A DNA stretch of 53,973 nucleotides from Verrucomicrobiales bacterium (GTDB taxonomy: Bacteria; Verrucomicrobiota; Verrucomicrobiia; Verrucomicrobiales; V1-33). The position numbers were made by a program, and so were the translations under genes. The notes below the pieces were generated by a model. The model was not told the DNA's origin, searched no databases, and saw nothing but the letters and a program-made list of their open reading frames with translations. Below are positions 2,600 to 51,220 of this stretch, piece after piece; the first letter of the stretch is position 1, and the number at the start of each line of letters is the position of its first letter. Location of the stretch: NCBI GenBank assembly GCA_018003315.1, contig JAGNEJ010000026.1, positions 1 to 53,973 of the forward strand. Reading direction: 5' to 3'.

Positions 2600-3627
2600 A
2601 GACAAGACCACTCGGCAGTTCCGGTTTGCAGGCCTCCGTCGTCGGTCTGGGAACGTGGGTGTTGGGAGGTGGAGCGATTTGGGGTCGGGAGACGGATGAT
2701 GCGGAATCGGTCCGCGCCATTCATGCCGCTCTCGACGCGGGGATCAATCTCATCGATACCGCACCGGCATACGGCTGGGGGCGCAGCGAGGAAGTCATTG
2801 GCAAGGCCATCAAGGGACGACGCGACAAAGCAATCCTCGCGACGAAGTGCGGGCTGTGGACGGATGATGAACGCGGCTCGTTCTTCACGGAGTTCGATGG
2901 GCGCAGCATGCGGCGCAGTCTCCGTCCGGACACGATTGCGATTGAAATCGAACGCAGCCTGAAGCGACTCAATGTCGAGTGCATCGACTTGTACCAGGTG
3001 CATTGGCCGTCGGTCCCGCCGGACTTTACGCCCATCGCGGACACGATGGCTTGCCTCCTCGATCTGCAGGAGGCAGGAAAGATTCGGGCCATTGGTGTTT
3101 GCAATGTGTCGCCCGATGAACTGGAGGAATATCTGCGCTGCGGCGCGATCGTGAGTGATCAATTCCAATTCTCGATGCTGCATCGCGACGCCGAGCGGGA
3201 CATCCTGCCGTTCTGCGCCGAACACGGCATGGCCACGCTCACTTACATGTCGCTTGAACAAGGTCTGCTGACCGGAAAAATCGGCATGGACCGAATCTTC
3301 AAGCCCGAGGAGTTCCGCAGCAACGAGACCTGGAACCCGTGGCTCGCACCGCAAAACCGCCGTCGCGTTCTCGATTTGCTAACGAACTGGAATGAACTGA
3401 CGAAAACCTACGCCTGCACTCTGGCCCAACTCGTCATCGCATGGACCGTCGCGCAGCTCGGCGTGACCCACGCGCTCATTGGCGGGCGCACGGTGGCGCA
3501 GGTGCAGGAGAACGCGCGCGGCGGCGACTTGAAACTGGAACCGGCGGATGTCGAGCGGATGCGCCGTGAAGTCATCGACCTCGGCAACCCGCTGTCCGCA
3601 ACCGCCGACCCCGTCGTCGCTTCATGA
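2596..3627 (+). CDS. Aldo/keto reductase
   Basis: This 343-aa NAD(P)H-dependent oxidoreductase is a (beta/alpha)8 barrel. The catalytic tetrad is visible as Asp54 and Tyr59 (LIDTAPAYG), Lys84 (LATKCG) and His136 (YQVHWPS). The C-terminal half carries the IGGRT cofactor-phosphate loop near residue 295. There is no signal peptide, so it should be cytoplasmic, unlike its exported neighbours. Its start overlaps the stop of the cytochrome gene and its stop overlaps the next start (both ATGA), which implies translational coupling. Family members of this type often act on sugars or aldehydes. Here it may process a product delivered by the exported redox proteins, which is inference. Confidence 0.92.
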   Translation: MKTRPLGSSGLQASVVGLGTWVLGGGAIWGRETDDAESVRAIHAALDAGINLIDTAPAYGWGRSEEVIGKAIKGRRDKAILATKCGLWTDDERGSFFTEFDGRSMRRSLRPDTIAIEIERSLKRLNVECIDLYQVHWPSVPPDFTPIADTMACLLDLQEAGKIRAIGVCNVSPDELEEYLRCGAIVSDQFQFSMLHRDAERDILPFCAEHGMATLTYMSLEQGLLTGKIGMDRIFKPEEFRSNETWNPWLAPQNRRRVLDLLTNWNELTKTYACTLAQLVIAWTVAQLGVTHALIGGRTVAQVQENARGGDLKLEPADVERMRREVIDLGNPLSATADPVVAS

Positions 3628-6332: not shown

Positions 6333-9300
6333 ATCTCACCATGGACACCGCTTCGTTCAAGGCAGGACTCAGACGAACAATAGCCGTCGTTGCGTTGGTT
6401 TCCGCTCTGCGCGCGGTTGGTGCAGAACCGCCGGCGAACTCCTTCACACTCGATGCATGGACCTTCGAGCGGGGCAATGCGCGGACCTTCATCGACGATT
6501 GGGCCGATGCGGGACCGATGATCGCTTACGGTGGGAGTTCACCGGTGGTGGTCGAGTATGATTTCGACCTGCCCTCGACCGGCGACTGGACGCTGCATCT
6601 GAATTACGCCGCCGCGAACGCCCGGCCCGTGAAGGTGTTTATCGACGGAAAACCGCTCGGCGAAGGCTGCCGCGCCGCCACGGGTGGCTGGAACACGAGC
6701 CAGGCGAAATGGGAGGCGACCGCCCGGTTCTCCGCGGTCGCAGACCGGCACACGCTCAAGCTCGAACGAGCCGGTGATTTTCCCCACATCGTCGGTCTGC
6801 GCTTCGCCGCGGCCGCGCCGTTGCCGGCCGGTTGGAAGCCGCATCGTCCCGCGGCGCGGAAACTCGAATCGCCACCCTCGCAGTTGGCCGGACGGGTGGA
6901 TCCGGTGGCCCTGCGGCTGGCCATCGAGGATTTGATCGCAACCTTCGGGGAGAAGTATCCGAACGGTCGCGAGTATTTGCGACAGTTGGAAAAGCTGGAG
7001 CGCGAACCGGCCGGCGAATCCCCACTCCGCGCCCTGGCCCGCGAGGCGCTGTTGGCGAATCCCCTCCTGGATTGTGACCGCGTTTTGCTCGTGCATCGCA
7101 AGACGCACGCGCCCGCCCGAAGCGCCGAGGGCCGTTCGCTCGGCGCCGGCGCGTCCAACTGGTCCACCGCCGACAACCTGCCTCGTCAGGGTGAGTTCGA
7201 AGACACGCTGGCCATTCTTTCCGAACTGCGTGGTGAACCGAAGATCGTGCCGCTGTTCCGACCCGCGAACGGCGAAACGCTCATCGATCCGGTGCTGCAC
7301 TTCGATGCGGACCGCGTGGTGTTCGCGATGAACGGCGCGAAGGAAAAGAACTGGCGGCTCTGGGAACTGCGCTTCGGCGAGGACGCGCCGCACCAGATCA
7401 CGCCCGACCACGGTGCGGACGTCGGGCATTTCGATCCGTGCTATCTGCCGGACGGGCGGATCATTTTCGCCTCGACTGCGGCCTACCAGGGATTGCCCTG
7501 CGTGTTCGGAAGTGACTTCATGACGTGCCTTTACCAGTTTGATCCGAAGACCCGGCAGACCCGCCAGATCACCTTCGAGCAGGACAGCGACTGGTGTCCG
7601 ACCCTGCTGCCCAATGGCCGCGTGATGTATCTGCGCTGGGAATACACCGACCAGTCGCACGCCAACTCGCGCATTCTGTTCCACATGAACCCCGATGGCA
7701 CCGACCAGCGCGAGTTTCGCGGCAGCGGGTCATGGTTTCCAGGTTCGTTCTTTTACGCGAAGGCCATTCCTGGCGAGGCACATCAAATCATCGGCATCGC
7801 CAGCGGACATCACGGCACGGCACGTTCCGGGCGGCTGCTCATCCTGGATCCCAGCCGCGGTCGGCGCGACGCCGAGGGCATCGTGCAGGAGATTCCGGGG
7901 CGCGGGAAGCCGGTCGAGCCCATCGTGCGCGACCGGCTTGTGGACGGTGTCTGGCCGCAATTCCTCATGCCCGCGCCGTTGAGCGCCAAGTATCATCTGG
8001 TCACAGCCAAGCTGGGGCCCAATTCGCTTTGGGGCCTCTACCTTGTGGACGTGTTCGACAACGTGACCCTCATCAAGGAGGTCGAGGGCGCAGCGCTCCT
8101 GTGGCCCGCTCCCGTGCTGCGGCGCGAACGGCCGCCGGTGATTCAGGACCGCGTCAAGCCGGAGACCGACGAATGCACCGTGTTCGTCGCCGACGTGAAC
8201 GAGGGGCCTGGATTGCAAGGCATCCCACGCGGAACGGTGAAGACGTTGCGCATCATCGAATACTATTTTGCCCGGCGCGGAATGGGCGGGCTTTACGGGA
8301 CGTTGGGCGCGGACGGGCCGTGGGACATCAAGCGCATCCTCGGTACGGTGCCGGTCGAGCCGGACGGTTCGGCGCAATTCGTGATGCCGGCAAACACGCC
8401 CGTGTGCGTGCAGCCGCTCGATGCGCAGGGCCAGGCGCTCCAACTCGAACGCAGTTGGTTCGTCGGCATGCCGGGCGAACGGGTGTCGTGCATCGGCTGT
8501 CACGAAAGCCAGGATGCGGCGGCGGTGAGCCGTTCCACCGCCGCGATGCGGCGCGCGCCGTCGCGGATTGATGACTGGTTCGGTCCGGCGCGCGGGTTCA
8601 GTTTCGAACGCGAAGTGCAGCCGGTGCTCGACCGGCATTGCGTGGGTTGCCACGACGGTTCGGCGCAGGCCGCCGCGCCATCGCTTCAAGGCGGCCAGCC
8701 GCTCAAGGACTGGAAGACGCAGCTTTCCGGGCACTGGCCGGGCGGTGGGAAGTTCACGGTGAGTTACTGGGAACTGCAACGCTGCGTGCGGCGGCCAGGG
8801 ATCGAGGGCGATCGCCGCATGTTCACGCCCATGGATTACCACTTCAGCACGACCGAGCTGGGACAACTGCTGCGCAAAGGCCATCACGGTGTGGCGCTGG
8901 ACGCCGAGGGCCATGAGCGCCTCACCGCCTGGGCCGATTTGAACGCACCGTTCTACGGAACCTGGGGCGAGATCCCCCCGTTCACCAGCGGCTACGGCCA
9001 CTTGAATGGAGAGCAGGTCGTTTCGGCCGGGGCACGTGCGTTGGAACTGCGTCGCCAGTTCGTGCCCATGGGGCCGTTCCCGGATTACGAGAAGATTCCC
9101 GAGACGCCGCGCTACGGCGAGGCGGCGCCACCGATGGCGCAGAATTCCAAACCGGCGCATGCACCGACGCCTGTCGGGGTGGAAGCGCCTCATCGCGCTC
9201 CCGGCGTGGAAGCCGACGCGGCGAAGCAGACCACCGTCACATTGGCTCCCGGGGTCACGCTTGAATTGGTGTGCGTTCCCGGCGGGCGATTCCTCATGGG

Positions 9301-10132
9301 CTCGACCCGTGGCCATGCGGACGAAACTCCGACAGCCGAAGTCGCGGTGAAATCTTTCTGGATGGCGCGCTTCGAGACGAGCAACCGGCAGTTCCGCCAG
9401 TTCGACTCCGCGCACGAGAGCCGCACGGAAGATCGCCACGGCTATCAGTTCGGTGCCGTTGGTTACGATCAGGACCTGCCCGATCAGCCGGCGGTGCGGG
9501 TGTCTTGGGAGGAGGCGATGGCGTTCTGCCGCTGGCTTTCACACCGCACCGGATCCCGGTTCACGCTGCCAACCGAGGCGCAATGGGAATGGGCCTGCCG
9601 CGCCGGCAGCGCGAAACCCTTTTCGTTCGGGGCCATTGACGCGGATTACTCGCGCCACGCCAACCTCGCAGACCGCCGCCTGCGCGACTTCGCCGCCGAC
9701 ACTTCGCTTGACCACTACGCCGCGCAGCGCCCGATGAAGAACCCAAACCGCTTCGACGACTGGCTGCCCCGGGATGATCGATACGACGACGGCGGTTTCG
9801 TCACCGCATCGGCCGGCCAGTACGAACCCAACGCCTGGGCTTTGCACGACATGCACGGCAACGCCGCCGAGTGGACGCTCTCCGCCTACCGCCCCTATCC
9901 GTATCGCGACGACGACGGGCGCAATGCCATCGAGGGCGCTGCGCGCGACACCGAGCGCGTGGTCCGCGGCGGTTCGTGGCGTGACCGGCCGTTCCGCGCC
10001 ACCTCGAGCTACCGGATCCCGTATCGCCAGTATCAACGCGTGTTCAACGTCGGCTTCCGCATCGTGTGCGAGGGCGGCATCACCAACCCAGGCGGAGAGA
10101 AACTCTCTGCCGACCGTCGAGAGACTCCATGA
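6329..10132 (+). CDS. HzsA-like di-heme protein with N-terminal binding module and C-terminal SUMF1 domain
   Basis: This is a 1267-aa exported protein (signal to about residue 33, cleavage near VGA-EPP). Residues about 40-165 form a beta-rich module resembling carbohydrate-binding domains. A propeller/HzsA-like core follows at about 240-700, then CIGCH (721-725) and CVGCH (771-775). After a proline-rich linker, residues about 967-1257 are a formylglycine-generating-enzyme-like (SUMF1) domain: PGGRFLMGS, LPTEAQWEWACRAG, HGNAAEWT, VRGGSW, NVGFRIVCEG. The segment after RGGSW lacks the two cysteines that bind copper in true FGE, so sulfatase-activating activity is unlikely; ligand binding or another oxidation is possible. 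It is coupled by ATGA overlaps to both neighbours. Confidence 0.82.
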   Translation: MNLTMDTASFKAGLRRTIAVVALVSALRAVGAEPPANSFTLDAWTFERGNARTFIDDWADAGPMIAYGGSSPVVVEYDFDLPSTGDWTLHLNYAAANARPVKVFIDGKPLGEGCRAATGGWNTSQAKWEATARFSAVADRHTLKLERAGDFPHIVGLRFAAAAPLPAGWKPHRPAARKLESPPSQLAGRVDPVALRLAIEDLIATFGEKYPNGREYLRQLEKLEREPAGESPLRALAREALLANPLLDCDRVLLVHRKTHAPARSAEGRSLGAGASNWSTADNLPRQGEFEDTLAILSELRGEPKIVPLFRPANGETLIDPVLHFDADRVVFAMNGAKEKNWRLWELRFGEDAPHQITPDHGADVGHFDPCYLPDGRIIFASTAAYQGLPCVFGSDFMTCLYQFDPKTRQTRQITFEQDSDWCPTLLPNGRVMYLRWEYTDQSHANSRILFHMNPDGTDQREFRGSGSWFPGSFFYAKAIPGEAHQIIGIASGHHGTARSGRLLILDPSRGRRDAEGIVQEIPGRGKPVEPIVRDRLVDGVWPQFLMPAPLSAKYHLVTAKLGPNSLWGLYLVDVFDNVTLIKEVEGAALLWPAPVLRRERPPVIQDRVKPETDECTVFVADVNEGPGLQGIPRGTVKTLRIIEYYFARRGMGGLYGTLGADGPWDIKRILGTVPVEPDGSAQFVMPANTPVCVQPLDAQGQALQLERSWFVGMPGERVSCIGCHESQDAAAVSRSTAAMRRAPSRIDDWFGPARGFSFEREVQPVLDRHCVGCHDGSAQAAAPSLQGGQPLKDWKTQLSGHWPGGGKFTVSYWELQRCVRRPGIEGDRRMFTPMDYHFSTTELGQLLRKGHHGVALDAEGHERLTAWADLNAPFYGTWGEIPPFTSGYGHLNGEQVVSAGARALELRRQFVPMGPFPDYEKIPETPRYGEAAPPMAQNSKPAHAPTPVGVEAPHRAPGVEADAAKQTTVTLAPGVTLELVCVPGGRFLMGSTRGHADETPTAEVAVKSFWMARFETSNRQFRQFDSAHESRTEDRHGYQFGAVGYDQDLPDQPAVRVSWEEAMAFCRWLSHRTGSRFTLPTEAQWEWACRAGSAKPFSFGAIDADYSRHANLADRRLRDFAADTSLDHYAAQRPMKNPNRFDDWLPRDDRYDDGGFVTASAGQYEPNAWALHDMHGNAAEWTLSAYRPYPYRDDDGRNAIEGAARDTERVVRGGSWRDRPFRATSSYRIPYRQYQRVFNVGFRIVCEGGITNPGGEKLSADRRETP

Positions 10133-12954
10133 AAATACCATCCAACCAATTCAATGCGCTGCTGATCACGGCCACGCTGCTGACCTTTTCCGCTTCCGCC
10201 CCGGCGGCCCCGCCCGGGTGGCAACAGGAGTTGGAGGAAGACTGGCTGCTGCAGGCGCAGCTTGAGGCGGAAGGGCAGCGTGCGGCCAAGGTCACCACGC
10301 GCGACGATGCTTCGGGCGGCTGCGATGGAGTGACCAATGGAAAATGGGGTTTTCACACCCGCGAGCAGGAGAATCCGTGGTGGCAGGTGGATCTCGGCGA
10401 ACGGTTGCCCCTGGCCCAGGTGCGCGTGTGGAATCGCGCGGACAATGACGGTGCCGCCGCTCGCGCCGCGCGATTCCAGATTCTGCTCTCCGACGACGCG
10501 AAGGGCTGGCGGCGGGCCTATCAACACGACGGAACGGTGTTCCACGGCTATCGGATGCCGGATCGCTGGCCATTGGTGGTAACGCTCACGAACGCCGCAG
10601 CGCGTTTTGTCCGCATCCAGCTTCCGGGCAAAACATTTCTGCACCTGGACGAAGTGGAAGTCATCCGCGCCGGCAAGGGGGAGAACTTGGCGCGGAACAA
10701 GCCCGCTGACCAAAGCAGCGTCAGCCAGTGGTCCGTGGCCCATCGCGCCGCGAAGGAGTTGGACTGGACCAGCGCGACCACGAAGGTGCTGGAGCGGCAT
10801 CGGGGTGACGCGCGCTTCGATGCACTCAGGGCTGATCTGGTCGCCCTTGCTCCCGGCAGTTCCGCTGAGCCGCTTTACCTCCGCGCCCGCGCGCTCCAGC
10901 GCCAAGTCGCTCTCGCCAGTCCGCTCCTGGACTTCGACACGATCCTGTTCACCCGACGCGTGCCCGGAAGCTACAGCCACATGAGCGATCAGTATTACGG
11001 CTGGTGGTCGCGTCCGGGCGGCGGCATCTACCTGCTCAGGAACTTCAAGAGCAGCGAGCCGGAAACGGTTTGTCTCACCGACGCGCATTTCAAGGAGCCG
11101 GGCAGTTTCCTCCGTCCCGCGCTGAGTTACGACGCGAAGAAAGTTCTCTTTGCCTGGTGCAAACATTATCCGGCGCTGGCGAAGGAGAAGGACAAGCTCA
11201 ACAAGGCCAACGTGCCCGAAGACGCGTTCTACCACGTCTTTGAGATGGACCTCGACGGTTCCGGCGTGCGGCAGCTCACCCACGGCAAGTATGACGACTT
11301 CGACGCGCGCTATCTGCCGGACGGCCGCATCGTGTTCCTCTCCACGCGGCGCGGCCAGGCCGTGCAGGTGAACAAACGCACGGCGGCGGCCACTTTGGCG
11401 CAGAACGATCTGCCCGACTGCTACGTGCGCTGCGGCGGTGACGCGGAACGGCCCGTGGCGGTTTACACACTCCACACGATGAACGGCGACGGCGGCGACC
11501 TGACGCCCATCTCGCCTTTCGAGATGTTCGAGTGGGAACCGAGCGTCGCGCCCGACGGGACGATTCTCTACTCGCGTTGGGACTACGTGGACCGCGACAA
11601 CATGCCTTACATGAGTCTTTGGGCCATCAACCCCGACGGCACGAACGCGCGGCTCGTCTATGGCAACTACACCCAGTCTCCGCACTGCACCTTCGAGCCG
11701 CGCGCGGTGCCCGGTTCGCGCAAAATCATCTTCACCGCCAGCGGCCATCATTCGCAGACGATGGGCAGCCTCGTGCTGCTCGACCCGGCCATCGGCACCG
11801 AAGGCAGCGCGCCCATCGAGCGCCTCACGCCCGACACGCCGTTCCCCGAAATCGAAGGCTGGCCGGCCGCGTTCTATGCCAATCCGTGGCCGCTTTCGGA
11901 GCGCACGCACCTCGTCGCCTGGGGCGTCGAAAAGAACATGCGTGAAGGCCATCAACGTCCGGCCAACGGCATGGGCATCTACCTCTTCAACGCCGACACC
12001 GGCCTCGAACTTCTCTCCCGCGTCCCTGACATTTCCTCGATGTATCCGATTCCGGTGAAGGCCCAGACGCCGCCGCCAGCGCTGGCCAGCACGTTGAATT
12101 GGGACGGGCCGCAGGAAGGAAAATTCCTGGTCAGCGACGTGACGCGCGGTCTTTCGACCGTGAACCCCGGCGACATCAAGGCGCTGCGCATCGTGGCCAT
12201 CCCGGCCAAAACGCAGCCGTCGATGAACCAGCCCGTCATGGGCCTCACCCGCGACGATCCGGGCAAGGCCGTGCTCGGCACGGTGCCGGTCGAGGCGGAT
12301 GGCTCGGCCTACTTTCGCGCGCCGTCGGGCGTGGCGCTGTTCTTCCAGGCGCTCGACACCGAAGGCCGCGCCGTGCAAACGATGCGGAGCGCGACGCACG
12401 TTCAGCCCGGCCAGACGTTGAGCTGCACCGGCTGCCATGATTCCCGCAAGGACACCCCGCCGCCCGCTCGCGCACCGCTGGCCTCGCTGCGCGCGCCTTC
12501 GAAGATCACGCCCGGCCCGGACGGATCCTGGCCGTTGCGCTTCGACCGGCTCATCCAACCCGTGCTGGACGCACACTGCGTGCGTTGCCACCGCAAGGAT
12601 TCATCGGATGCCGTCGCCGCGAAATTCGATCTCACATTGGACAAGGCCTACAGGACGTTGGCCGATCACGGCCGGCCCAGTCTGCGCGATCTGGTGCTCG
12701 CCGCCTATCGCGAAGGTGTTTCGACTGAAGGCAAAAATCCCGCCCAGCGCAGTGCGCTGCTGGCGCTGCTGGCGACGCCCGATGGCCACCACGGCGTGAA
12801 GCTCTCCCGCGCCGATCTCGACCGCTTCACCACCTGGCTCGACACCTACGGCCAGCACACCGGCGCGTTCAGCCCGGAGCAGGAGGCGGATCTGGAACGG
12901 CTGCGCGGTGAATGGAAGGAGTTGCTTACAGCCACCACAGGAGACCGCCCATGA
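10129..12954 (+). CDS. HzsA-like di-heme protein, third tandem paralogue, with F5/8C module
   Basis: This is a 941-aa exported protein. The ATG at 10129 overlaps the upstream stop and gives a clean signal peptide (MKIPSNQF... to APAA); the frame is open further upstream but without a signal. Residues about 45-185 look like an F5/8C module (WWQVDLGERLPLAQVRVWNR, FVRIQLPGK, LDEVEVI). A TolB-like propeller at about 260-620 contains MDLDGSGVRQLTHG, YLPDGRIVFLSTRR and INPDGTNARLVYGNY. Heme motifs are CTGCH (766-770) and CVRCH (817-821), spaced as in the two preceding paralogues. It is the last complete cistron; its TGA lies inside an ATGA that begins an aborted next frame. Confidence 0.82.
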   Translation: MKIPSNQFNALLITATLLTFSASAPAAPPGWQQELEEDWLLQAQLEAEGQRAAKVTTRDDASGGCDGVTNGKWGFHTREQENPWWQVDLGERLPLAQVRVWNRADNDGAAARAARFQILLSDDAKGWRRAYQHDGTVFHGYRMPDRWPLVVTLTNAAARFVRIQLPGKTFLHLDEVEVIRAGKGENLARNKPADQSSVSQWSVAHRAAKELDWTSATTKVLERHRGDARFDALRADLVALAPGSSAEPLYLRARALQRQVALASPLLDFDTILFTRRVPGSYSHMSDQYYGWWSRPGGGIYLLRNFKSSEPETVCLTDAHFKEPGSFLRPALSYDAKKVLFAWCKHYPALAKEKDKLNKANVPEDAFYHVFEMDLDGSGVRQLTHGKYDDFDARYLPDGRIVFLSTRRGQAVQVNKRTAAATLAQNDLPDCYVRCGGDAERPVAVYTLHTMNGDGGDLTPISPFEMFEWEPSVAPDGTILYSRWDYVDRDNMPYMSLWAINPDGTNARLVYGNYTQSPHCTFEPRAVPGSRKIIFTASGHHSQTMGSLVLLDPAIGTEGSAPIERLTPDTPFPEIEGWPAAFYANPWPLSERTHLVAWGVEKNMREGHQRPANGMGIYLFNADTGLELLSRVPDISSMYPIPVKAQTPPPALASTLNWDGPQEGKFLVSDVTRGLSTVNPGDIKALRIVAIPAKTQPSMNQPVMGLTRDDPGKAVLGTVPVEADGSAYFRAPSGVALFFQALDTEGRAVQTMRSATHVQPGQTLSCTGCHDSRKDTPPPARAPLASLRAPSKITPGPDGSWPLRFDRLIQPVLDAHCVRCHRKDSSDAVAAKFDLTLDKAYRTLADHGRPSLRDLVLAAYREGVSTEGKNPAQRSALLALLATPDGHHGVKLSRADLDRFTTWLDTYGQHTGAFSPEQEADLERLRGEWKELLTATTGDRP

Positions 12955-31544: not shown

Positions 31545-32576
31545 TCAGCGTCCTGACGGACGGGAGTTGTCGGATGCTGGCCCCACCCGGTTCACGGATT
31601 GCTGCGGCCCCTCCAACTGACCGGCTTTGACGGCCTCGATGACCTGCTTGATGTGCTCGATGCGGTTGCCAGGATCCGGATGAGTGCTCATGAACTCAGG
31701 CTGACGCTGGCCGCCGGATGCCTCCTTGAGCACTTCCATGACCTTGATGAGCCCCTGCGGATCATACTTGGCGTTGATCATGAACTGCACGCCCAGGGTG
31801 TCGGACTGGGTTTCATCATTGCGGCCATAGCGCATGTTGACCATGGCCCCGATCACCTGCGCCATTCGGCCGTGGTCCTGGCCGTCGGAAGTCAGCACCG
31901 CCCCGGACTGGGCGATGCCGCCGATGAGCTTGGCCTTGGCCATCTGCTGGGCGGAATGGCGTCCGATGACATGCCCGATTTCGTGTCCGAGCACTCCCGC
32001 GATTTCATCCTCGGTCTCCAGGCGTTTGAAGAGTCCATAGGTAAAAAACACCTGTCCACCGGGCAGAGCGAAGGCGTTGATGGTTTCGGGATCGCGCAGC
32101 AGGTGGAATTTCCACTGGTACTGATTGAACACCGGAGCCCAGTCACCCACGGCATTGGCGCGCAGCAGCTTATTGCCGACCTGGGAAACAAAATCGCGCA
32201 GTTGGGGGTCCGGATGTTCGCCGCCATGCTGGGCGATCATTTCCGGAGCCGCCTGCAGGCCCAGGGGGACATCCTGTTCCGGTTTCCACGGGACGCGGTG
32301 GGTTTCATCCGTCACCGGGTTGTGTTCCTGATAGGTGCTGCTGAAGTAGGTGATGACCGCACCGACCGCGAACACCAGCGCCATGAGCAGTTTGGGGTTC
32401 TTCAGCAACGAGCCGAGCAGTCCGCCTGCAAGCCCTGCTGTCGGGCCGCCGCGGGGATCCATTTGGGGATCGCCCCCGGCATCCTCCTCCGGTTCGGTGG
32501 GTTCTTCCTGCCGCCTCCATCGGAAAGGCGGATTCTGCTGGGGACGTTCGTCTGGAGAGTTGGGGTCGTAGCTCAT
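31545..32576 (-). CDS. M48-family zinc metalloprotease, membrane anchored
   Basis: This 343-aa protein has a proline-rich acidic N terminus, one membrane segment (about 68-88, LLMALVFAVGAVITYFSS) and an M48 peptidase domain with the zinc motif HEIGHVIGRHSAQQ and a downstream Glu in the DETQSDTLG region. FALPGGQVFFTYGLFKRLETEDE, before the zinc motif, is typical of M48 BepA/LoiP/Oma1-like enzymes. It probably degrades misfolded envelope proteins. It is divergent from hisA, 57 bp apart, and upstream of corA. Confidence 0.9.
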   Translation of the reverse strand: MSYDPNSPDERPQQNPPFRWRRQEEPTEPEEDAGGDPQMDPRGGPTAGLAGGLLGSLLKNPKLLMALVFAVGAVITYFSSTYQEHNPVTDETHRVPWKPEQDVPLGLQAAPEMIAQHGGEHPDPQLRDFVSQVGNKLLRANAVGDWAPVFNQYQWKFHLLRDPETINAFALPGGQVFFTYGLFKRLETEDEIAGVLGHEIGHVIGRHSAQQMAKAKLIGGIAQSGAVLTSDGQDHGRMAQVIGAMVNMRYGRNDETQSDTLGVQFMINAKYDPQGLIKVMEVLKEASGGQRQPEFMSTHPDPGNRIEHIKQVIEAVKAGQLEGPQQSVNRVGPASDNSRPSGR

Positions 32577-32633: not shown

Positions 32634-33419
32634 ATGACGAATTTTCGCCCCTGCATCGATCTTCACGACGGAAAAGTGAAACAAATTATCGGCGGCACGC
32701 TCTCGGATGACGCGACCGGCCTGGTGACGAATTTTGTCAGTGCAGAGTCTGCCGCGTATTTTGCGGACCTCTACCGCCGCGATGGACTCAAGGGCGGCCA
32801 TGTCATCATGCTCGGCAAAGGCAATGAGCAGGCGGCCCGGGAAGCTCTGGGCGCTTATCCTGGCGGCCTGCAGATCGGTGGTGGCATTACCATCGCCAAT
32901 GCGTCCGACTGGCTGGCTGCCGGGGCCTCACACGTCATCCTGACATCGTGGCTGTTTTCCCAGGACGGGAGTTTTCTGCCTCGCCGGCTTGAAGTGCTGG
33001 CCCGGGAAATTGGCCCGGAGCGCATCGTCGTGGATTTGAGCTGCCGACGGGATTCGGAGGAAGGCTGGACGGTGTGCATGAATCGCTGGCAAATGTGGAC
33101 GGATTTCACCATCAGTCCGGAACGGCTCGCTCCGCTCTCGGATTTCGCTGCGGAACTGCTGGTCCACGCCGCTGATGTGGAGGGACGGCAGGCTGGCATG
33201 GATCATGACCTCATAGCCCGACTGGCGGACTGGGCTTCGCTGCCGGTGACCTATGCCGGCGGGGCCCGCAGTGTGGGGGATCTGGCCGCCGTGGAGCGGC
33301 TCAGCAGAGGACGCGTGGACCTCACCATTGGCAGTGCCCTGGACATTTTCGGCGGGCCGCTGGCCTATGCCGACTGCGTTGCGTGGAACCGGGCGGCGGC
33401 GCAGCGGAGCAGTGGCTAG
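32634..33419 (+). CDS. hisA: Eukaryotic-type HisA (HIS6-like) ProFAR isomerase
   Basis: This 261-aa (beta/alpha)8 enzyme would convert ProFAR to PRFAR, the fourth step of histidine synthesis. The sequence follows the yeast His6 pattern much more closely than usual bacterial HisA: CIDLHDGKVKQIIGGTL at the start, HVIMLGKGNEQAAREAL, VILTSWLFS, RIVVDLSCR, MNRWQMWTDF, HAADVEG, VTYAGGARSVGDL and DLTIGSALDIFGG. The catalytic Asp pair corresponds to Asp9 and the Asp of HAADVEG. No other his gene is nearby. The GmhA-type gene follows 90 bp downstream on the same strand. Confidence 0.93.
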   Translation: MTNFRPCIDLHDGKVKQIIGGTLSDDATGLVTNFVSAESAAYFADLYRRDGLKGGHVIMLGKGNEQAAREALGAYPGGLQIGGGITIANASDWLAAGASHVILTSWLFSQDGSFLPRRLEVLAREIGPERIVVDLSCRRDSEEGWTVCMNRWQMWTDFTISPERLAPLSDFAAELLVHAADVEGRQAGMDHDLIARLADWASLPVTYAGGARSVGDLAAVERLSRGRVDLTIGSALDIFGGPLAYADCVAWNRAAAQRSSG

Positions 33420-33509: not shown

Positions 33510-34085
33510 ATGCTAGACGCCCACATTGACCGATCCATTGCCGCCCTGAATTCCATCCGCCCTCTGGCTGCCGAGGCCAAGCGGGCGGTCACGCTGCTGG
33601 CCGAATGCCTGAGCAATGGCGGAAAAGTCCTCATGTGCGGGAACGGCGGCAGCGCGGCGGAAGCGGCGCACTTTGCCACCGAACTGCTCTGCAGGTTCGA
33701 ACGCGACCGGCCCTCCCTGCCCGCGCTCAACCTGAGTGCAGACGGAAGTTTCCTGACAGCCACTGGAAATGACTACGATTTCAGCCGCATCTTTTCGCGC
33801 CAGGTGGACGGGCTTGGCAAAAAGGGGGATCTGCTGGTGGCATTCACCACCTCCGGAAATTCAAAGAACGTGGTTCGCGCGATGGATGCCGCCAAGGGGC
33901 GCGGCATGAAGGTGATTGGTTTTCTGGGCCGCGATGGTGGCGAGGCGAAGGGGCTCGCGGACGTGGCCCTGGTTGTTCCTGGTAATGCAACGGCTCCCAT
34001 TCAGGAGGCGCACCAGGTGCTGCTGCATTATCTCTGCGCGGAGATGGAGCAGGTCATGTTCCCGGGGCTGCATCGTCAGGACTGA
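33510..34085 (+). CDS. gmhA: SIS-domain phosphoheptose isomerase (GmhA-like)
   Basis: This 191-aa sugar isomerase shows CGNGGSAAEAAHFATEL, GNDYDFSRIFSRQVDGLG, FTTSGNSKNVVRAM and the C-terminal QEAHQVLLHYLCAEME, together the pattern of sedoheptulose-7-phosphate isomerase for heptose (LPS core) precursors. The ATG at 33510 gives the family-typical N terminus; the frame opens 19 codons earlier. It follows hisA at 90 bp on the same strand and is convergent with the next gene (7 bp between stops). Confidence 0.87.
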   Translation: MLDAHIDRSIAALNSIRPLAAEAKRAVTLLAECLSNGGKVLMCGNGGSAAEAAHFATELLCRFERDRPSLPALNLSADGSFLTATGNDYDFSRIFSRQVDGLGKKGDLLVAFTTSGNSKNVVRAMDAAKGRGMKVIGFLGRDGGEAKGLADVALVVPGNATAPIQEAHQVLLHYLCAEMEQVMFPGLHRQD

Positions 34086-40456: not shown

Positions 40457-43400
40457 TCAGGGAACATACAGCCCGATCCACCGGAGGCTTCCGGAATCGC
40501 TTCCGGTCAATTCAAACAGTGCGGGTTTGCCTGGTTCCAGCCAGCGCAGGGGGACTGAAATAGTTAGTATTCCGCAGGCGTCTTCAGCGTTTGCCTCCAG
40601 GACGCGCCACTGGCCGACCACGGAACCGTCCGCACTGCGCCACGAGGAATTGGCCAGGGAAGCCGCAAGATTCAATGCCACCCGACGGTTGATGCGGAGA
40701 TGAAAATTCCCCGCTGGCTGGGAGACATACCCCATGCCTGCGGCAAAACGAAACGTGGCGGAATCCCCTCCAGCGGCAACCGGAGTGCTTTCCCAGGCCA
40801 GTTCCTGCTCGCCATTCAGCGCGCGGCAGCAATGCAGCGGAAGGCTTCCCATCCAACTGGAATAGGTCTGCGAGGCACCGGATTTGATGATTTTGCCGAG
40901 ACGCAGCGGGCTGCTGTCCAGAAAGGTTTTCCGCGCTGCGGCGGTCTGTGCGGGTGTCGCGCTGGCCCATGCGGCAGGTCCTCCAGAACGCAGCCATGCA
41001 TGCAGATCCGCCATGTCCTGCGGAGCCAGGAGCTTTTCCAGTCCTTCGGGCATCAGGGAAACACCCAGCGGCTGAATGCGCGCCACCTCTTTGCGCAGCA
41101 GGGTTTCGGCGATTCCCGCTGGCTGCACCACCACCAACCCGGTTGCTGTTTCCTCCCGAATGATGCCCGCGCGGGTTCGCCCGTCCGTGGTCACGACTTC
41201 GCAGGCGAGATGCGCGGGTTCGATCACCGCATTGGGATCGACGATGGCCATTACCAGATCCAGCACGGGTTTGGCGCGGTAGGCGGCGATGTCAGGACCA
41301 ACCGCGTGTCCGATGCCATTCGCAGCATGGCATGTGGCGCAGTTTTTTTGAAACACTGCCTCGCCAGCTTCCAGATTTCCGGACAATCCGGCCGTGGCCG
41401 CGTAGGGCTTCATCCGATCCCCCACGCTCGCCGTGGATCGCGCGGGGAAGAGCCCGGCAGCCTCGGGAAGCACGCGGATCACCGCCTGCTGATCCACCAG
41501 CGGAATCTCCGCGGGAAGCAGGCGACCCGCTCGCACCGCCTTCACCAGCAGCGGATTCCACTCCCGGCGGCTGCTCAGTGCATGGACAATGGCGCTCCGC
41601 ATCGCCGGAGTGCCCGCTTGGAGAAATTCCGTTAGTCGCTGCCCGTTATTTGCGCCGCCGCGCCGGGTGACGATCTCCAGCACCGCCGTCGCACCGGTAT
41701 CACCAAAAATTCCCAGCAGCGCCTCGTCCGGCAGACCGATGGCACCCAGCAGGCGCAATGCGTCAGGATCCCCCTCGCTCATGGCCGCTTTGCCGCGGGC
41801 CTCCAGCAAGTTCTTGCGAGGGCCATCCATGTGTTCCTTCATTTTCTCACACAATTCCGCCAGCAATCTCAGCGGTGCCTCCGGACTGGCCAGCAGCAGA
41901 TCCAGTGCAGCGTCAGGATGCTTCACGGAGGCGGCAAAGCCAGCGATCAATTCCTGACGTCCGGGCGTCTGCGCAGGCGCCTGCAGCATCCGTTGCAAGC
42001 ATGCTTCAGCGCAGTCGGCTGCGGAACTGAACACCGCTGCGCGGATCCAGGGATCCCCACCATGTGTCAGGGCAATCGACGAAAGCTGGTCCGGGTTCGT
42101 CGAGGCAAGCGCCGCCGCGGCGGCGACTTTGGGAACTGGATCGGAAATGACCGGAGTCAGGTCCACACGGTATTTTCCTGCCAGGCGTGCGGCGATTTCC
42201 CTGACATGGGCGTCCCCGTCTTTCAGTGCGGCGGAAATCTCCTGGGCCGTCAGCGATCCGATGCCATCGCGCACCGCGAGCGCCTGGCCGCGAACCTGGG
42301 GAATGGGGCTTTGCAACAGGGCGGCAAGGCCGGACGAACGGCCCCGGAGCAGGATTTCCATGTGGACCCGGTCGCGTTCCGTTCCGTTGCGAGTGGCCAG
42401 CGCAGCCGCCAGATCGGCGTCGGAAAGCGCCGTCAAGTCGCGGACGGAACGCAGGGGTTTTCCCGGCACTTTCAGACGGTAAATCCGTCCGCGATCACTG
42501 CCGGCGCGGAGGTCCAGTCGCTTCTGGCGCTCCTCCGGGATCCAGGTGGGGTGCTCGATGACAAACCGGTACATGTCCACGATCCACAGGGCTCCATCCG
42601 GTCCGGTTCGGGCCTGGACAAAGCGGCTCCAGTTGTCTCTGCTGGAAAAAAATTCCCGCTGCGGTTCGTCTGGTGCCCTGCTGCCACTGAAGGTCACGCC
42701 ATCGTCCGCCAGCACCGTGCGGCGAACCAGATTATGAACGGGTTCGCAGGTAAAGGCATTGCCGGAATACGCTTCACCGAGCCAGTCATCGCGATAAATG
42801 GCCACGCCACAGCCTGATGTGGTGCGGTTGGCCATGTGCGGCTCGTTATAGCGCTCCAGAGTCCTGCTGGTGGGAAACAGCGGACCTTCACCGGTTTTGG
42901 CGAGGGGATTCACCCGGGCTGCTGGGGGGGCAACGTGCGCATTTCGCTGCAGGGGGCCATCCGGCAGCGGATAGTGCCAGAGCAGCGTGGAATTGTCGCA
43001 CCCAAACCAATGATCCCAGTCGTCGCGCGGGCGCCCCTGCTGGGTTTTGCCGGAGGCGGCTTCGATGACTCCGGACGCCGGATCGAAGCGGAAGTCGCGC
43101 CCTGACAAATCGATGTTGCCCGGGGTGATCCGCCCGCCGATCAGCCCGCCGCTGCCGTGAATCCAGTTGTCGAGCCCAAGGGCCAGTCCATTGACCCGCG
43201 CGTTGTAGTTTTCGGTGGACCAACCGCTGTAGCGCTTCTCCACCCGGTCGGCGCGGCCGTCGCCGTCGGTGTCCTCCGCCCAGAGGATGTCCGGCGCCGC
43301 GCAGACAAATGCACCGCGCCCACGGCAGAGGAAACCGGTGGGAAATTTCAGCCCGTCGAGAAACACCTGGGCCTTGTCAGGAAGGCCGTCGCCGTTGGTG

Positions 43401-44959
43401 TCGGTGAGGATTTTCAGGCTGCTTCCCGCCTTCCAGTTTCCGTCCACGCCTTTTGGATAGTCGCTGAGTTCCAGCACCCAGAGGCGTCCACGGGCATCCC
43501 AGTCGATGCAAATGGGATCGGCCACCAGCGGTTCGGCGGCCACCAGCTCAATTTCCAAGCCGCCGCCGACACGCAGGCTCGCTTGCGACTCCTGCGGCGG
43601 CAGCGCGGGCGGCATCTCGCGCTGCGTTTCGGTTAGGCGATACGATCCTGGCAGCAGCGATGCTGCGGCATTTTCAATGATCTGTTCTGTTTCCGGAGCC
43701 AGCCGGGCCGGGCGGTCGTAATACCACAGCGACTCCTGGGCCTCATATCCACCTTCCTCCAAAATGCGGCGGCTGGGGATGTAGCAGGGCACGTCATTGG
43801 CATAGGCGGTCACCCACAGACGGCCCCCATCAAATCGGTCCTTCAGCCAGCGCGAGTAGTCCACCACCACCTCGCCGGCCAGAAAAACCATCGCCAAATC
43901 ATCGCCAAAGCACCACGTCTGCACGGTGTAGGGCAGTTTCTCCAGCAGCGTTTCGCCGCGGTCCAGCTTCTCCAACTGACGTTTCGCATGATAGCCCACG
44001 ATGCCGCCCTGCCCGGCCCGCTGTTGCCATTGCTCGCGGGTGGGTGGCGGGGCAAACGGCAATTCGATCCGCTCCAGCCGGCACACCGGCGCCGCCGTCA
44101 GCGGGCGCATCCGGTTCCTGACAAGTCCTGCGGCCTCCACCGAAAGCTCCCTGCCGTGTTCCGCAGCAAGCTCAATCTTTCCGCGTGGAGAGGGATTGGC
44201 ATCCGCTCCCGTACCAACCGTAATCAGGGCCACCGCGCCGGGAAATTGATTCTCCAATTCCACCTGGGCGCATCCTGACCAGTCTCCGTGCACCACGTTG
44301 GCGTCTCCCAGCGTGGTGCAATGGCAGGCGTAGTTGGCGACGATGGCCAGCGGTTTTCCCGTGTCACGGTCGCGGGCACAGAGCACGGGCAGGGCATGAT
44401 CCACCGGACCGCCACGAGTGCGGCGGTTGGCGGCGAAGCACACGCGGCCTTCATTCCATTCCAGCGTTGCCGCCCGCTGCGCCCGGATGGCATCCAGCGC
44501 CACGGTTTTGAGTTTTTCTGTCAGGATTTTTGCATAGGCAACGATGCGCTCCCGCTGTTCCGGAGTGTCATTGCCCACGAAAATGTTTGGGGCGAACCGG
44601 GAGAGCATCGGGCCGTTGTGGGTATGCGAAGAGCAGACGGCCAGGTTTTCGCGCGGCAGGGCGGCCTTCTCCCGCAGCCATGTCGCCACTTCCTCCACGA
44701 TGTCCGCAGTGACTCCGCAGTTGTCCACGCCGATGAGCACCAGCGGAGGCTTTCCGGTGGTGGAAATGGCCAGGGCTTTCGCCCAAAGCCGCTGGGCCAC
44801 TTCCTGAGTTTCCGAGGTCCGGCTGGCATACCCTGTCAGGCGGATCGCCCCTTCCGGCGTGATGTCCTGCCTGGCCGCTCCCGCTTTGAAATCCTCACCA
44901 AAAATCCACCCGGCGGTGAAGGACATGACCAGCATTGCGCATCCGAGAATCCGTTTCAT
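40457..44959 (-). CDS. Neutral-ceramidase-like domain fused to PVC dehydrogenase, HEAT repeats and cytochrome c
   Basis: This is a 1500-aa exported protein starting at 44959 (MKRILGCAMLVMSFTAGWIFG). Residues about 24-440 resemble neutral/alkaline non-lysosomal ceramidase (AGAARQDITPEGAIRLTGY, CSSHTHNGPMLS, NYACHCTTLG with its metal-binding histidines). Residues about 465-880 are a PVC-type membrane-bound-dehydrogenase propeller (LEIELVAAEPLVADPI, DTNGDGLPD, NGLALGLDNWIHGSGG). HEAT-like repeats span about 900-1170. A mono-heme cytochrome c domain has CATCH at 1207-1211, followed by a beta-sandwich C terminus. Each half is a known family; the fusion couples a hydrolase to an electron-carrying dehydrogenase. 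It is divergent from the sulfatase 104 bp away. Confidence 0.85.
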   Translation of the reverse strand: MKRILGCAMLVMSFTAGWIFGEDFKAGAARQDITPEGAIRLTGYASRTSETQEVAQRLWAKALAISTTGKPPLVLIGVDNCGVTADIVEEVATWLREKAALPRENLAVCSSHTHNGPMLSRFAPNIFVGNDTPEQRERIVAYAKILTEKLKTVALDAIRAQRAATLEWNEGRVCFAANRRTRGGPVDHALPVLCARDRDTGKPLAIVANYACHCTTLGDANVVHGDWSGCAQVELENQFPGAVALITVGTGADANPSPRGKIELAAEHGRELSVEAAGLVRNRMRPLTAAPVCRLERIELPFAPPPTREQWQQRAGQGGIVGYHAKRQLEKLDRGETLLEKLPYTVQTWCFGDDLAMVFLAGEVVVDYSRWLKDRFDGGRLWVTAYANDVPCYIPSRRILEEGGYEAQESLWYYDRPARLAPETEQIIENAAASLLPGSYRLTETQREMPPALPPQESQASLRVGGGLEIELVAAEPLVADPICIDWDARGRLWVLELSDYPKGVDGNWKAGSSLKILTDTNGDGLPDKAQVFLDGLKFPTGFLCRGRGAFVCAAPDILWAEDTDGDGRADRVEKRYSGWSTENYNARVNGLALGLDNWIHGSGGLIGGRITPGNIDLSGRDFRFDPASGVIEAASGKTQQGRPRDDWDHWFGCDNSTLLWHYPLPDGPLQRNAHVAPPAARVNPLAKTGEGPLFPTSRTLERYNEPHMANRTTSGCGVAIYRDDWLGEAYSGNAFTCEPVHNLVRRTVLADDGVTFSGSRAPDEPQREFFSSRDNWSRFVQARTGPDGALWIVDMYRFVIEHPTWIPEERQKRLDLRAGSDRGRIYRLKVPGKPLRSVRDLTALSDADLAAALATRNGTERDRVHMEILLRGRSSGLAALLQSPIPQVRGQALAVRDGIGSLTAQEISAALKDGDAHVREIAARLAGKYRVDLTPVISDPVPKVAAAAALASTNPDQLSSIALTHGGDPWIRAAVFSSAADCAEACLQRMLQAPAQTPGRQELIAGFAASVKHPDAALDLLLASPEAPLRLLAELCEKMKEHMDGPRKNLLEARGKAAMSEGDPDALRLLGAIGLPDEALLGIFGDTGATAVLEIVTRRGGANNGQRLTEFLQAGTPAMRSAIVHALSSRREWNPLLVKAVRAGRLLPAEIPLVDQQAVIRVLPEAAGLFPARSTASVGDRMKPYAATAGLSGNLEAGEAVFQKNCATCHAANGIGHAVGPDIAAYRAKPVLDLVMAIVDPNAVIEPAHLACEVVTTDGRTRAGIIREETATGLVVVQPAGIAETLLRKEVARIQPLGVSLMPEGLEKLLAPQDMADLHAWLRSGGPAAWASATPAQTAAARKTFLDSSPLRLGKIIKSGASQTYSSWMGSLPLHCCRALNGEQELAWESTPVAAGGDSATFRFAAGMGYVSQPAGNFHLRINRRVALNLAASLANSSWRSADGSVVGQWRVLEANAEDACGILTISVPLRWLEPGKPALFELTGSDSGSLRWIGLYVP

Positions 44960-45063
44960 GGACGGAAGTTTTCCGGCTTGAACGGCGGCTGACAAGCCCA
45001 AACCACGTCGCGGGGAATCCCAAGGTTGCGTAATGCACCGGGGCGCTTCATGCTGCCATTGCC

Positions 45064-49546: not shown

Positions 49547-50440
49547 TCAATCCCCCTCGGCACCCATGGGTGCGGCGCGCGCTTCCGGATCGGCAGTGGA
49601 TTCCGGTTGAGCGGCATCCACCGGCGGGGCTTTCTCCGGGTTTTCCGGCTCCGCAGCTTTCGGACGGCGGCCTCTTTTGGGTTTCGCCTCGGCGTCCTCG
49701 CCGGTGCCAAATGGGAGTTCCTGCTGCAGCGCCACGGCATTCTCGGGATGCGGCGCTTCCTCGGGTTCCGGCAGTTTCACGGCGCGCAATTCGGCGGCAT
49801 TGGGCAGTTCATCCACGGACTTGATGCCGAAATGATCCAGAAACAGATCCGTGGTTTCATAGAGCAGGGGACGCCCTGGCAGATCCGCTCTTCCGGAGAT
49901 GCGGATGATGTTCCGGTCCAGCAGCGTCTGCATGGGGCCGTCCACACTAACGCCGCGCACCGCTTCAATGCTGGCCTTTGTCACCGGCTGGCGGTAGGCG
50001 ATGATCGCCAGCGTTTCCAGTGCGCTGGGCGTGAGCCGCTGCGGTTTTTTTTCGGGAAACAACTGACGCACCCAAGGGGCGTATTCCGGACGGGCGGCGA
50101 TGCGCCATCCGGTGGGCCGTTCGGCCAGGGTGAAGGCGCGTCGGGATTCCTCATAGGTGCGGATGAGCCGGACAATCACCGCAGTGATCTGTTCTTCGGT
50201 GACTTCGCCATACCGCACCAGCGCCGCGGTCAACGGATCAACTGGCCCGGCTGATTCCACCGGATTTTCCGCTTCACCAGCCCCATCTCCCTGAGCGGTT
50301 TGCACCACGGTTTCCTCCTCAGTCATCCGCTCCCGGGCGGCCGCGGCGGCGGTGCTGCCGAGCACCCGTGCGATTTCCCGTGCGGATACGCCATCCGGGG
50401 AGGCAAAGATGAGGGCTTCAACGATGTGTTCCAATTCCAT
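49547..50440 (-). CDS. scpB: Segregation and condensation protein B
   Basis: This 297-aa protein is the winged-helix kleisin-associated subunit of the Smc-ScpAB chromosome condensation complex. It starts LEHIVEALIFASPDGVSAREIARVLG, and RPTGWRIAARPEYAPWVRQLF, QRLTPSALETLAIIAYRQPVTKASIEAVRGV and LPGRPLLYETTDLFLDHFGI are typical. A poorly conserved insertion of about 40 residues (31-70) sits in the first winged helix, and an acidic/Pro-rich tail of about 80 residues contains KPKRGRRPK, a basic AT-hook-like patch. It lies 30 bp downstream of scpA. Confidence 0.93.
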   Translation of the reverse strand: MELEHIVEALIFASPDGVSAREIARVLGSTAAAAARERMTEEETVVQTAQGDGAGEAENPVESAGPVDPLTAALVRYGEVTEEQITAVIVRLIRTYEESRRAFTLAERPTGWRIAARPEYAPWVRQLFPEKKPQRLTPSALETLAIIAYRQPVTKASIEAVRGVSVDGPMQTLLDRNIIRISGRADLPGRPLLYETTDLFLDHFGIKSVDELPNAAELRAVKLPEPEEAPHPENAVALQQELPFGTGEDAEAKPKRGRRPKAAEPENPEKAPPVDAAQPESTADPEARAAPMGAEGD

Positions 50441-50470
50441 AGGTCAACGGGTGCTGGCGCAGGCCATCGG

Positions 50471-51220
50471 CTAGGTGTTTTCGTTGCGGATGAGGGTGAT
50501 TTCACCGAGCAGACTGTCCTGGGAAATGCGGAACTGCCGCAGTTTGATCAGCTCCAGCATCGCCACAAAGGTCACGATGATTTCATCCCGCGAACTGGCG
50601 GCGGCGAACAGGCTGAAAAAGCGCACCTGTTCACCGGGCGGCACCGAGGTCAGCAGAAATTCAATCTTGTCCGCGACCGTCCACCGGTCATCCACGATTT
50701 CGTGCAGGGTCGGGGTCTTTTTCTCCTCGGAAAACCGGTCGAGCACTCCCTGAAAGGCGCGGATAAGGTCGAAGATGCTGACCTCCGGAAACGGTTCCAC
50801 CCCGTCATCGGCAATCATGCCTTCCGGAGCTTCCGGCACGGCGGGGAAAAACGTCTCGTTCTGCATGGCCCGGCGCTGCAGGAAGCCGGCGGCATCCTTG
50901 AATTTCTTGTATTCAATGAGCTGGCGGATCAGCTCCCAGCGGGGGTCCTCCTCGTCCGCATCGGCGTCAGGCAACTGCACCTGTTTGGGCAGCAGCGTCC
51001 GGCTCTTCAAATACATCAGGTTGGCAGCCATCACGATGAACTCGCCCGCGAGGTCGATGTTCAGCAGTTTGAACGTGTCCACATACTCCAGAAACTGCCT
51101 GGTGACGCGCTCGATGGAAATATCGCAGATGTCCACCTCGTCCTTCTTGATGAGGTAAAGAAGGAGATCGAGCGGACCCTCGAACATGTCCAGCCGGACT
51201 TTGTAGTTCTCTTCAACCAT
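50471..51220 (-). CDS. scpA: Segregation and condensation protein A (kleisin)
   Basis: This 249-aa kleisin subunit bridges Smc heads. The N terminus (VRLDMFEGPLDLLLYLIKKDEVDICDISI) and AGEFIVMAANLMYLKSRTLLP are diagnostic, and the C terminus has the winged-helix SmC-binding part (IVTFVAMLELIKLRQFRISQ). Start at 51220. It is followed by scpB after 30 bp in the usual order, so they form an operon. Confidence 0.94.
   Translation of the reverse strand: MVEENYKVRLDMFEGPLDLLLYLIKKDEVDICDISIERVTRQFLEYVDTFKLLNIDLAGEFIVMAANLMYLKSRTLLPKQVQLPDADADEEDPRWELIRQLIEYKKFKDAAGFLQRRAMQNETFFPAVPEAPEGMIADDGVEPFPEVSIFDLIRAFQGVLDRFSEEKKTPTLHEIVDDRWTVADKIEFLLTSVPPGEQVRFFSLFAAASSRDEIIVTFVAMLELIKLRQFRISQDSLLGEITLIRNENT

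Follow-up and report, generated by a model that had tools for sequence, protein, structure and literature searches.

A HIS6-type HisA in a Verrucomicrobiales bacterium belongs to a subfamily that occurs in several bacterial phyla and appears to trade places with ordinary HisA

The window (the whole stretch of Verrucomicrobiales DNA that was analyzed, 53,973 nucleotides in length) carries an uninterrupted open reading frame on its plus strand that begins with ATG and encodes a protein of 261 amino acids. Profile matches, a sequence search of the PDB, and the predicted fold identify this gene as a hisA of the HIS6 type. The gene, one residue codon discussed below, and the two genes that flank it are as follows:

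31545-32576, minus strand: M48 peptidase gene, a divergent neighbor outside the feature, identified by profile matches
32634-33419, plus strand: hisA of the HIS6/TIGR02129 type (ProFAR isomerase), 261 amino acids, a (beta/alpha)8 barrel
32658-32660, plus strand: Asp9 codon; in the alignment this residue matches the Asp mutated (D57N) in Medicago structures 9fcf and 9fcg
33510-34085, plus strand: gmhA-like sugar isomerase gene, the next gene downstream, outside the feature, identified by profile matches

The gap between hisA and the ATG chosen for the gmhA-like gene is 90 bp; the list of open reading frames begins the latter gene at TTG 33453, and its product scores below the curated cut-offs of its best-matching models. 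A scan for promoters and terminators was uninformative, with no promoter-like site on the plus strand in the interval that separates hisA from the M48 gene. We compared nine window proteins (HisA included) with 163 loci whose flanks varied in length, many being of 1.5 kb only, and some of which represent the same genome twice. In this survey, a conserved neighborhood with gmhA was unsupported: homologs of the window's neighbors were near the HIS6-type gene in 2 of the 163 loci, one having gmhA and the other bioB. One Verrucomicrobiales contig has a bioB homolog (71%) on the opposite strand, about 4 kb beyond its HIS6-type gene; the corresponding distance in the window is about 3 kb. To look for a fusion to HisIE, the HIS6-type genes of the 163 loci (two of which are the window) were extended to their farthest ATG; the additional N-terminal sequence amounted to at most 162 amino acids, and exceeded 60 amino acids in 11 loci.

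The protein scored 355.4 bits (E = 2e-106) against TIGR02129 (hisA_euk), passing the curated cut-off of 229.3, and residues 2-253 were matched to positions 1-255 of this 255-position profile. Against TIGR00007, which models ordinary HisA, it scored 56.6 bits and did not reach the curated cut-off of 228.95. The original prediction had called the gene HIS6 type, as opposed to the usual bacterial HisA, on the basis of motifs, all of which are present in the translation of 32634-33419, and the contrast between 355 and 57 bits bears this out. The profile scores and the rooted tree (described later) place the protein outside TIGR00007, the opposite of the placement that the original prediction had named as refuting it, and rule out that a canonical HisA had been mistaken for the HIS6 type. 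The closest sequences in the PDB were Medicago HISN3 (9fcf, E = 2.6e-75; 51.0% identity) and yeast HIS6 (2agk, E = 1.8e-73; 50.6% identity), followed by a next match at 1.1e-7. The hisA gene is genuine, correctly typed, and routine in its lineage, and it belongs to a family that has already been named and annotated.

An AlphaFold2 model of the window protein, built with 27 sequences, had a mean pLDDT of 93.7 and a pTM of 0.91. The first three structures ranked by Foldseek were 9fcf, 9fcg, and 2agk, with TM-scores, normalized by query, of 0.92, 0.93, and 0.85 and E-values between 3.8e-34 and 1.1e-28 (3.5e-15 for the next chain); the predicted fold is, thus, that of HISN3/HIS6. In the alignment of 114 HIS6-type rows, the Asp9 column contains D in 113, and the sole N is that of the Medicago D57N mutant chain, indicating that Asp9 is the residue that crystallographers changed (ProFAR/PrFAR complexes). 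This column is also D in three bridging proteins (discussed later) and in six rows of ordinary HisA. Seven other residues, Q17, H178, E183, Y207, G209, G210, and G233, are present in 114/114 HIS6-type rows; S234 is present in 113, and Asp181, two residues before Glu183, in 112. Where the HIS6 type has H178, Q17, Y207, and S234, the six aligned rows of ordinary HisA have T, R, A/V, and K, respectively, and the column of Glu183 is occupied in ordinary HisA by the D of the (R/T)DG motif, which is the second catalytic residue of that enzyme.

As a HisA, the protein would act at step 4 of histidine synthesis, at which the barrel would open the sugar ring of ProFAR and rearrange the molecule to PrFAR, for subsequent use by a separate HisF/HisH pair; Asp9 would be the conserved catalytic acid/base. 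We infer that the enzyme most likely performs this standard ProFAR-to-PrFAR isomerization. The window protein shares with yeast HIS6 (2agk) and Medicago HISN3 (9fcf/9fcg) the subfamily model, about 51% identity, the predicted fold, the Asp, and the invariant columns, but differs from them in having a bacterial host, and does not have the four-residue insertion that the Medicago row carries near residue 23. Ordinary bacterial and archaeal HisA (TIGR00007) is a related barrel that has Pfam PF00977 and one Asp column in common with the window protein; it differs in that the window protein gets only 57 bits against its model.

The genome to which the window belongs (5.09 Mb in 155 contigs, 96.5% complete, with an estimated contamination of 2.56%) was searched for a second HisA, a check that the original prediction had suggested. 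None was found by either protein search or TIGR00007 search. The other strong TIGR00007 match, on contig C115 (126 bits), is HisF, which scores 380.8 bits to TIGR00735, and the remaining TIGR00007 matches had E-values of 0.017 or higher. The hisF gene comes after a leuD gene on C115, and HisH is encoded on contig C145 (188.9-189.2 bits). No his genes were detected among the eight other open reading frames scanned near hisF (E≤1e-15), or among the eight scanned near hisH (E≤1e-10). The window's hisA had been described as standing apart from other his genes, and it is indeed separate from those that we located; however, hisF and hisH are also apart, on two further contigs, and because the located his genes are scattered, a lone hisA is not special in this genome.

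We determined how the two HisA types are distributed among 387 sampled genomes of the Verrucomicrobiota. TIGR02129 matched in 161 genomes (E≤1e-20), 160 of them above the cut-off, while TIGR00007 matched in 204 at a best E≤1e-57, with 195 above the cut-off. No genome had both types, compared with about 85 expected if the two were independent (161×204/387). Neither type was found in 22 genomes, one of which (G107) has a TIGR00007 match at 4.6e-48. The types also alternate at the genus level: among genomes of genus code g2, 15 carry the HIS6 type, four the TIGR00007 type, and four neither, and in genus code g26 each type is found in two genomes. In one genome of the same phylum, two TIGR02129 matches of equal score lie about 1.2 kb apart (G157:C42:48040-48789 and 49977-50726), which may reflect tandem duplication or a repeat in the assembly.

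Outside the Verrucomicrobiota, each sample was built around a center genome that had been picked for having the gene and that is counted among the positives. On this basis, the genomes with a match above the cut-off numbered 91 of 100 in the phylum-level sample centered on a Fibrobacter genome, 12 of 199 in that centered on a Pirellulaceae genome, 7 of 188 in that centered on a Myxococcales genome, and 5 of 249 in that centered on a Paenibacillus genome; a class-level sample centered on a gammaproteobacterium gave 1 of 274, the center genome itself. The best 80 of at least 579 confirmed loci, which had been sorted by how similar they are to the query and, therefore, form no census, comprised 50 from Verrucomicrobiota, 12 from Fibrobacterota, seven from Pseudomonadota, four from Bacillota, two from Planctomycetota, one each from Kiritimatiellota, Lentisphaerota, Spirochaetota, and Myxococcota, and one unplaced; these phyla are those of the record titles, which can be wrong for binned genomes. 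Among 14 named control genomes, M. jannaschii alone matched TIGR02129 in the Verrucomicrobiota search, below the cut-off, and none of the 14 matched in the searches of the other phyla, which used a stricter E-value. The idea that a eukaryotic-type enzyme is an oddity in a bacterium, thus, finds no support: the HIS6 type is common in the Verrucomicrobiota sample, almost universal among the sampled genomes of the Fibrobacter phylum, and, by record title, present in at least seven phyla besides Verrucomicrobiota and Fibrobacterota.

Sixteen carriers of the HIS6 type, from nine phyla by title, were examined further. TIGR00007 was above the cut-off in none of them. Fifteen have a HisF-like match besides the HIS6-type gene (the sixteenth shows the HIS6-type gene only), located on another contig in 14 genomes and about 0.8 Mb away in one; the two HisF-like matches that were checked are both hisF. 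In gammaproteobacterium MOLA455, hisF adjoins ribA. In Bacilli, hisA is usually located between hisH and hisF. In Paenibacillus sp. PL91, the genes hisG, hisD, hisB, hisH, hisF, hisIE, and a hisJ-like gene follow each other in this order on one strand, and the 83-bp gap between hisH and hisF (L184 (G390:C26:24000-36000), 5715-5797) contains no hisA; the HIS6-type gene of this strain is on a different contig from the his cluster. These patterns suggest that the HIS6 type is a subfamily of bacterial HisA and that gene displacement exchanges it with ordinary HisA: an incoming HIS6-type gene would spread alone and take over, and the old hisA would be lost. The displacement mechanism is suggested by the distribution and by one clear cluster case, and the direction of transfer is likewise inferred. 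We place at roughly 0.9 the probability that the window encodes the sole ProFAR isomerase found in this genome, and that it belongs to a HIS6 subfamily that is bacterial in its diversity, interchangeable with ordinary HisA, and subject to displacement as a lone gene.

A quick rooted tree of 104 rows, with six ordinary HisA rows as the outgroup, placed the HIS6-type rows together with a small bridging group opposite ordinary HisA. This group consists of three HisA-like proteins from the Pirellulaceae-phylum sample:

L161:4001-4699, plus strand: bridging HisA-like protein
L162:2792-3487, minus strand: bridging HisA-like protein
L163:3190-3882, minus strand: bridging HisA-like protein

The bridging proteins, found in 3 of the 199 genomes, branch outside the clade formed by all 95 HIS6-type rows (SH-aLRT 99); they score 151-168 bits against TIGR02129 and 98-108 bits against TIGR00007, both below the cut-off, and all three have Glu in the Asp181 column. 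They are, possibly, a third HisA type. Yeast HIS6 was located within a set of 63 rows (97) that is otherwise bacterial, and Medicago was located outside this set, at the base with bacterial rows, where the branching order is unsupported.

The original prediction had offered either ancient gene exchange or a bacterial source of the eukaryotic gene, and the nesting of yeast among bacteria favors the bacterial source; Medicago, which falls in the same clade, is in the unsupported part of the order. We consider it distinctly improbable that a eukaryote was the donor of the gene to this bacterium or its lineage. The family model does have a eukaryotic name, and its description is said to suggest a eukaryote-to-bacterium transfer for Fibrobacter, whose HisA belongs to the same TIGR02129 subfamily as the window protein. 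In addition, yeast HIS6 shares the sub-clade of the window protein (see below), and the base of the HIS6-type clade in the rooted tree, which has just two eukaryotic rows in total, includes Medicago, so an early eukaryotic branch would be compatible with that tree. However, the bacterial sequences are diverse, coming from nine phyla by record title; each eukaryote is nearer to some bacterium (62% and 58%) than to the other eukaryote (45%); and yeast is inside supported, otherwise bacterial rows, while the bridging group outside the whole subfamily is itself bacterial. Eukaryotic contamination of the assembly can hardly explain the contig: although the assembly is a draft of 155 contigs with 2.56% estimated contamination, the contig carries uvrC, corA, gmhA-like, and bioB genes, the GC content of the gene region (0.62) is inside the range of the window (0.59-0.67), the nearest relatives among the matches listed are from Verrucomicrobiota, a bioB homolog is similarly placed in one other Verrucomicrobiales contig, and 36 of 44 other genomes of the same order have the HIS6 type. 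It is also unlikely that the protein has another role, as an orphan or in a side reaction, in a bacterium whose histidine pathway may be incomplete. In favor of such a role, a profile search of this genome did not find hisD (TIGR00069), though hisA, hisF, and hisH are present. The same search matched in 13 of 14 control genomes and did not match in Bacillus subtilis, which we take to have hisD, indicating that either the search or that assembly can miss a real hisD; further, at 96.5% completeness in 155 contigs, an assembly gap may lie behind the absence, and an incomplete histidine pathway is a possible reading of it as well. Against another role are the presence of HisF and HisH in the genome and the mutual exclusion of the HIS6 type and ordinary HisA across the 387 genomes, which suggests that the two share one role.

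We then asked how many times eukaryotes acquired the HIS6 type, using a careful, unrooted tree of 62 rows, which were selected by hand once the first tree was available. This tree divides the subfamily (100/97) into (i) sub-clade A, with 25 bacteria and Medicago, and (ii) sub-clade B, with 34 bacteria, yeast, and the window protein. The position of the window protein within sub-clade B is without support, as are the nearest bacterial relatives of yeast and of Medicago. Fibrobacter-type rows L050 and L173 make up a separate branch within sub-clade B, while L171 and L172, from the same phylum, are in sub-clade A. Medicago and yeast share 45.2% identity; the best bacterial match of Medicago is L172, from the phylum of the Fibrobacter genome (62.2%), and that of yeast is L139, from the phylum of the Pirellulaceae genome (58.0%). 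These sequences make it slightly more probable than not that the HIS6 type is a bacterial family with two sub-clades from which eukaryotes took the gene at least twice, the plant line from A and the yeast line from B; the probability is limited by the sampling of one fungus and one plant, the long branch of yeast, and the unsupported order at the base. A single eukaryotic uptake, with yeast and plant set apart by long branches or convergent sites, is a less probable alternative. Yeast has the longest end branch, there are but two eukaryotic sequences, and when the nine columns with the clearest separation of A and B were removed, one eukaryotic clade was no longer rejected (AU p = 0.145), while a quick tree kept the split at 95. 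Conversely, yeast and Medicago were together in 0% of 200 bootstrap trees, and forcing them together cost 65.4 log-likelihood units (AU p = 0.001). Removal of the ten columns of a signature segment (YxxVTDRW in A, WxxAMNRW in B) gave an AU p of 0.0006 and left the split at 98/90. The value of 0.145, moreover, came from deleting the very columns in which support for the split lies, a procedure that is biased against it, yet shows how much depends on them. Independently of any model, Medicago follows A at seven of these nine diagnostic columns and B at one, yeast follows B at eight and A at none, and the window protein follows B at six and A at two.

The analysis adds evidence that bacteria are a natural home of the family and that, in the genomes sampled, it and ordinary HisA exclude each other, along with an indication that fungi and plants got the gene separately. 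Two forms of a core enzyme never occur together in the 387 genomes sampled from one phylum, and replace each other even among members of a genus. If eukaryotes did take up the gene twice, the "eukaryotic" enzyme would represent one alternative HisA borrowed from bacteria on two separate occasions. The label "eukaryotic-type" is called into question, and where fungal HIS6 and plant HISN3 came from becomes directly testable. A 2024 paper reportedly describes the structure and evolution of Medicago HISN3, and may cover part of the distribution. Judged by title or the start of the abstract, no treatment of HIS6-type distribution was found in the literature searched, which lies largely outside the subscription journals. 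Excerpts of earlier work address neighboring questions: his gene fusions and hisA/hisF duplication are treated in PMC1963479, and a HisIE fusion is hinted at for some Gammaproteobacteria and Spirochaetia in a portion of PMC8102479. For plants, a table in PMC2530860 gives one histidine gene, from Chloroflexi, that is not HISN3, and a part of PMC10978614 describes HISN2 and HISN6 as likely horizontally transferred and HISN5 as cyanobacterial.

Elsewhere in the window, three big adjacent open reading frames on the plus strand (3624-12954) each have a hydrazine synthase alpha middle domain (PF18582, Pfam), and also carry F5/8 type C or FGE-sulfatase domains. On the minus strand (40460-45001), an open reading frame of 1514 amino acids matches a ceramidase N-terminal domain, DUF7133, and cytochrome c.
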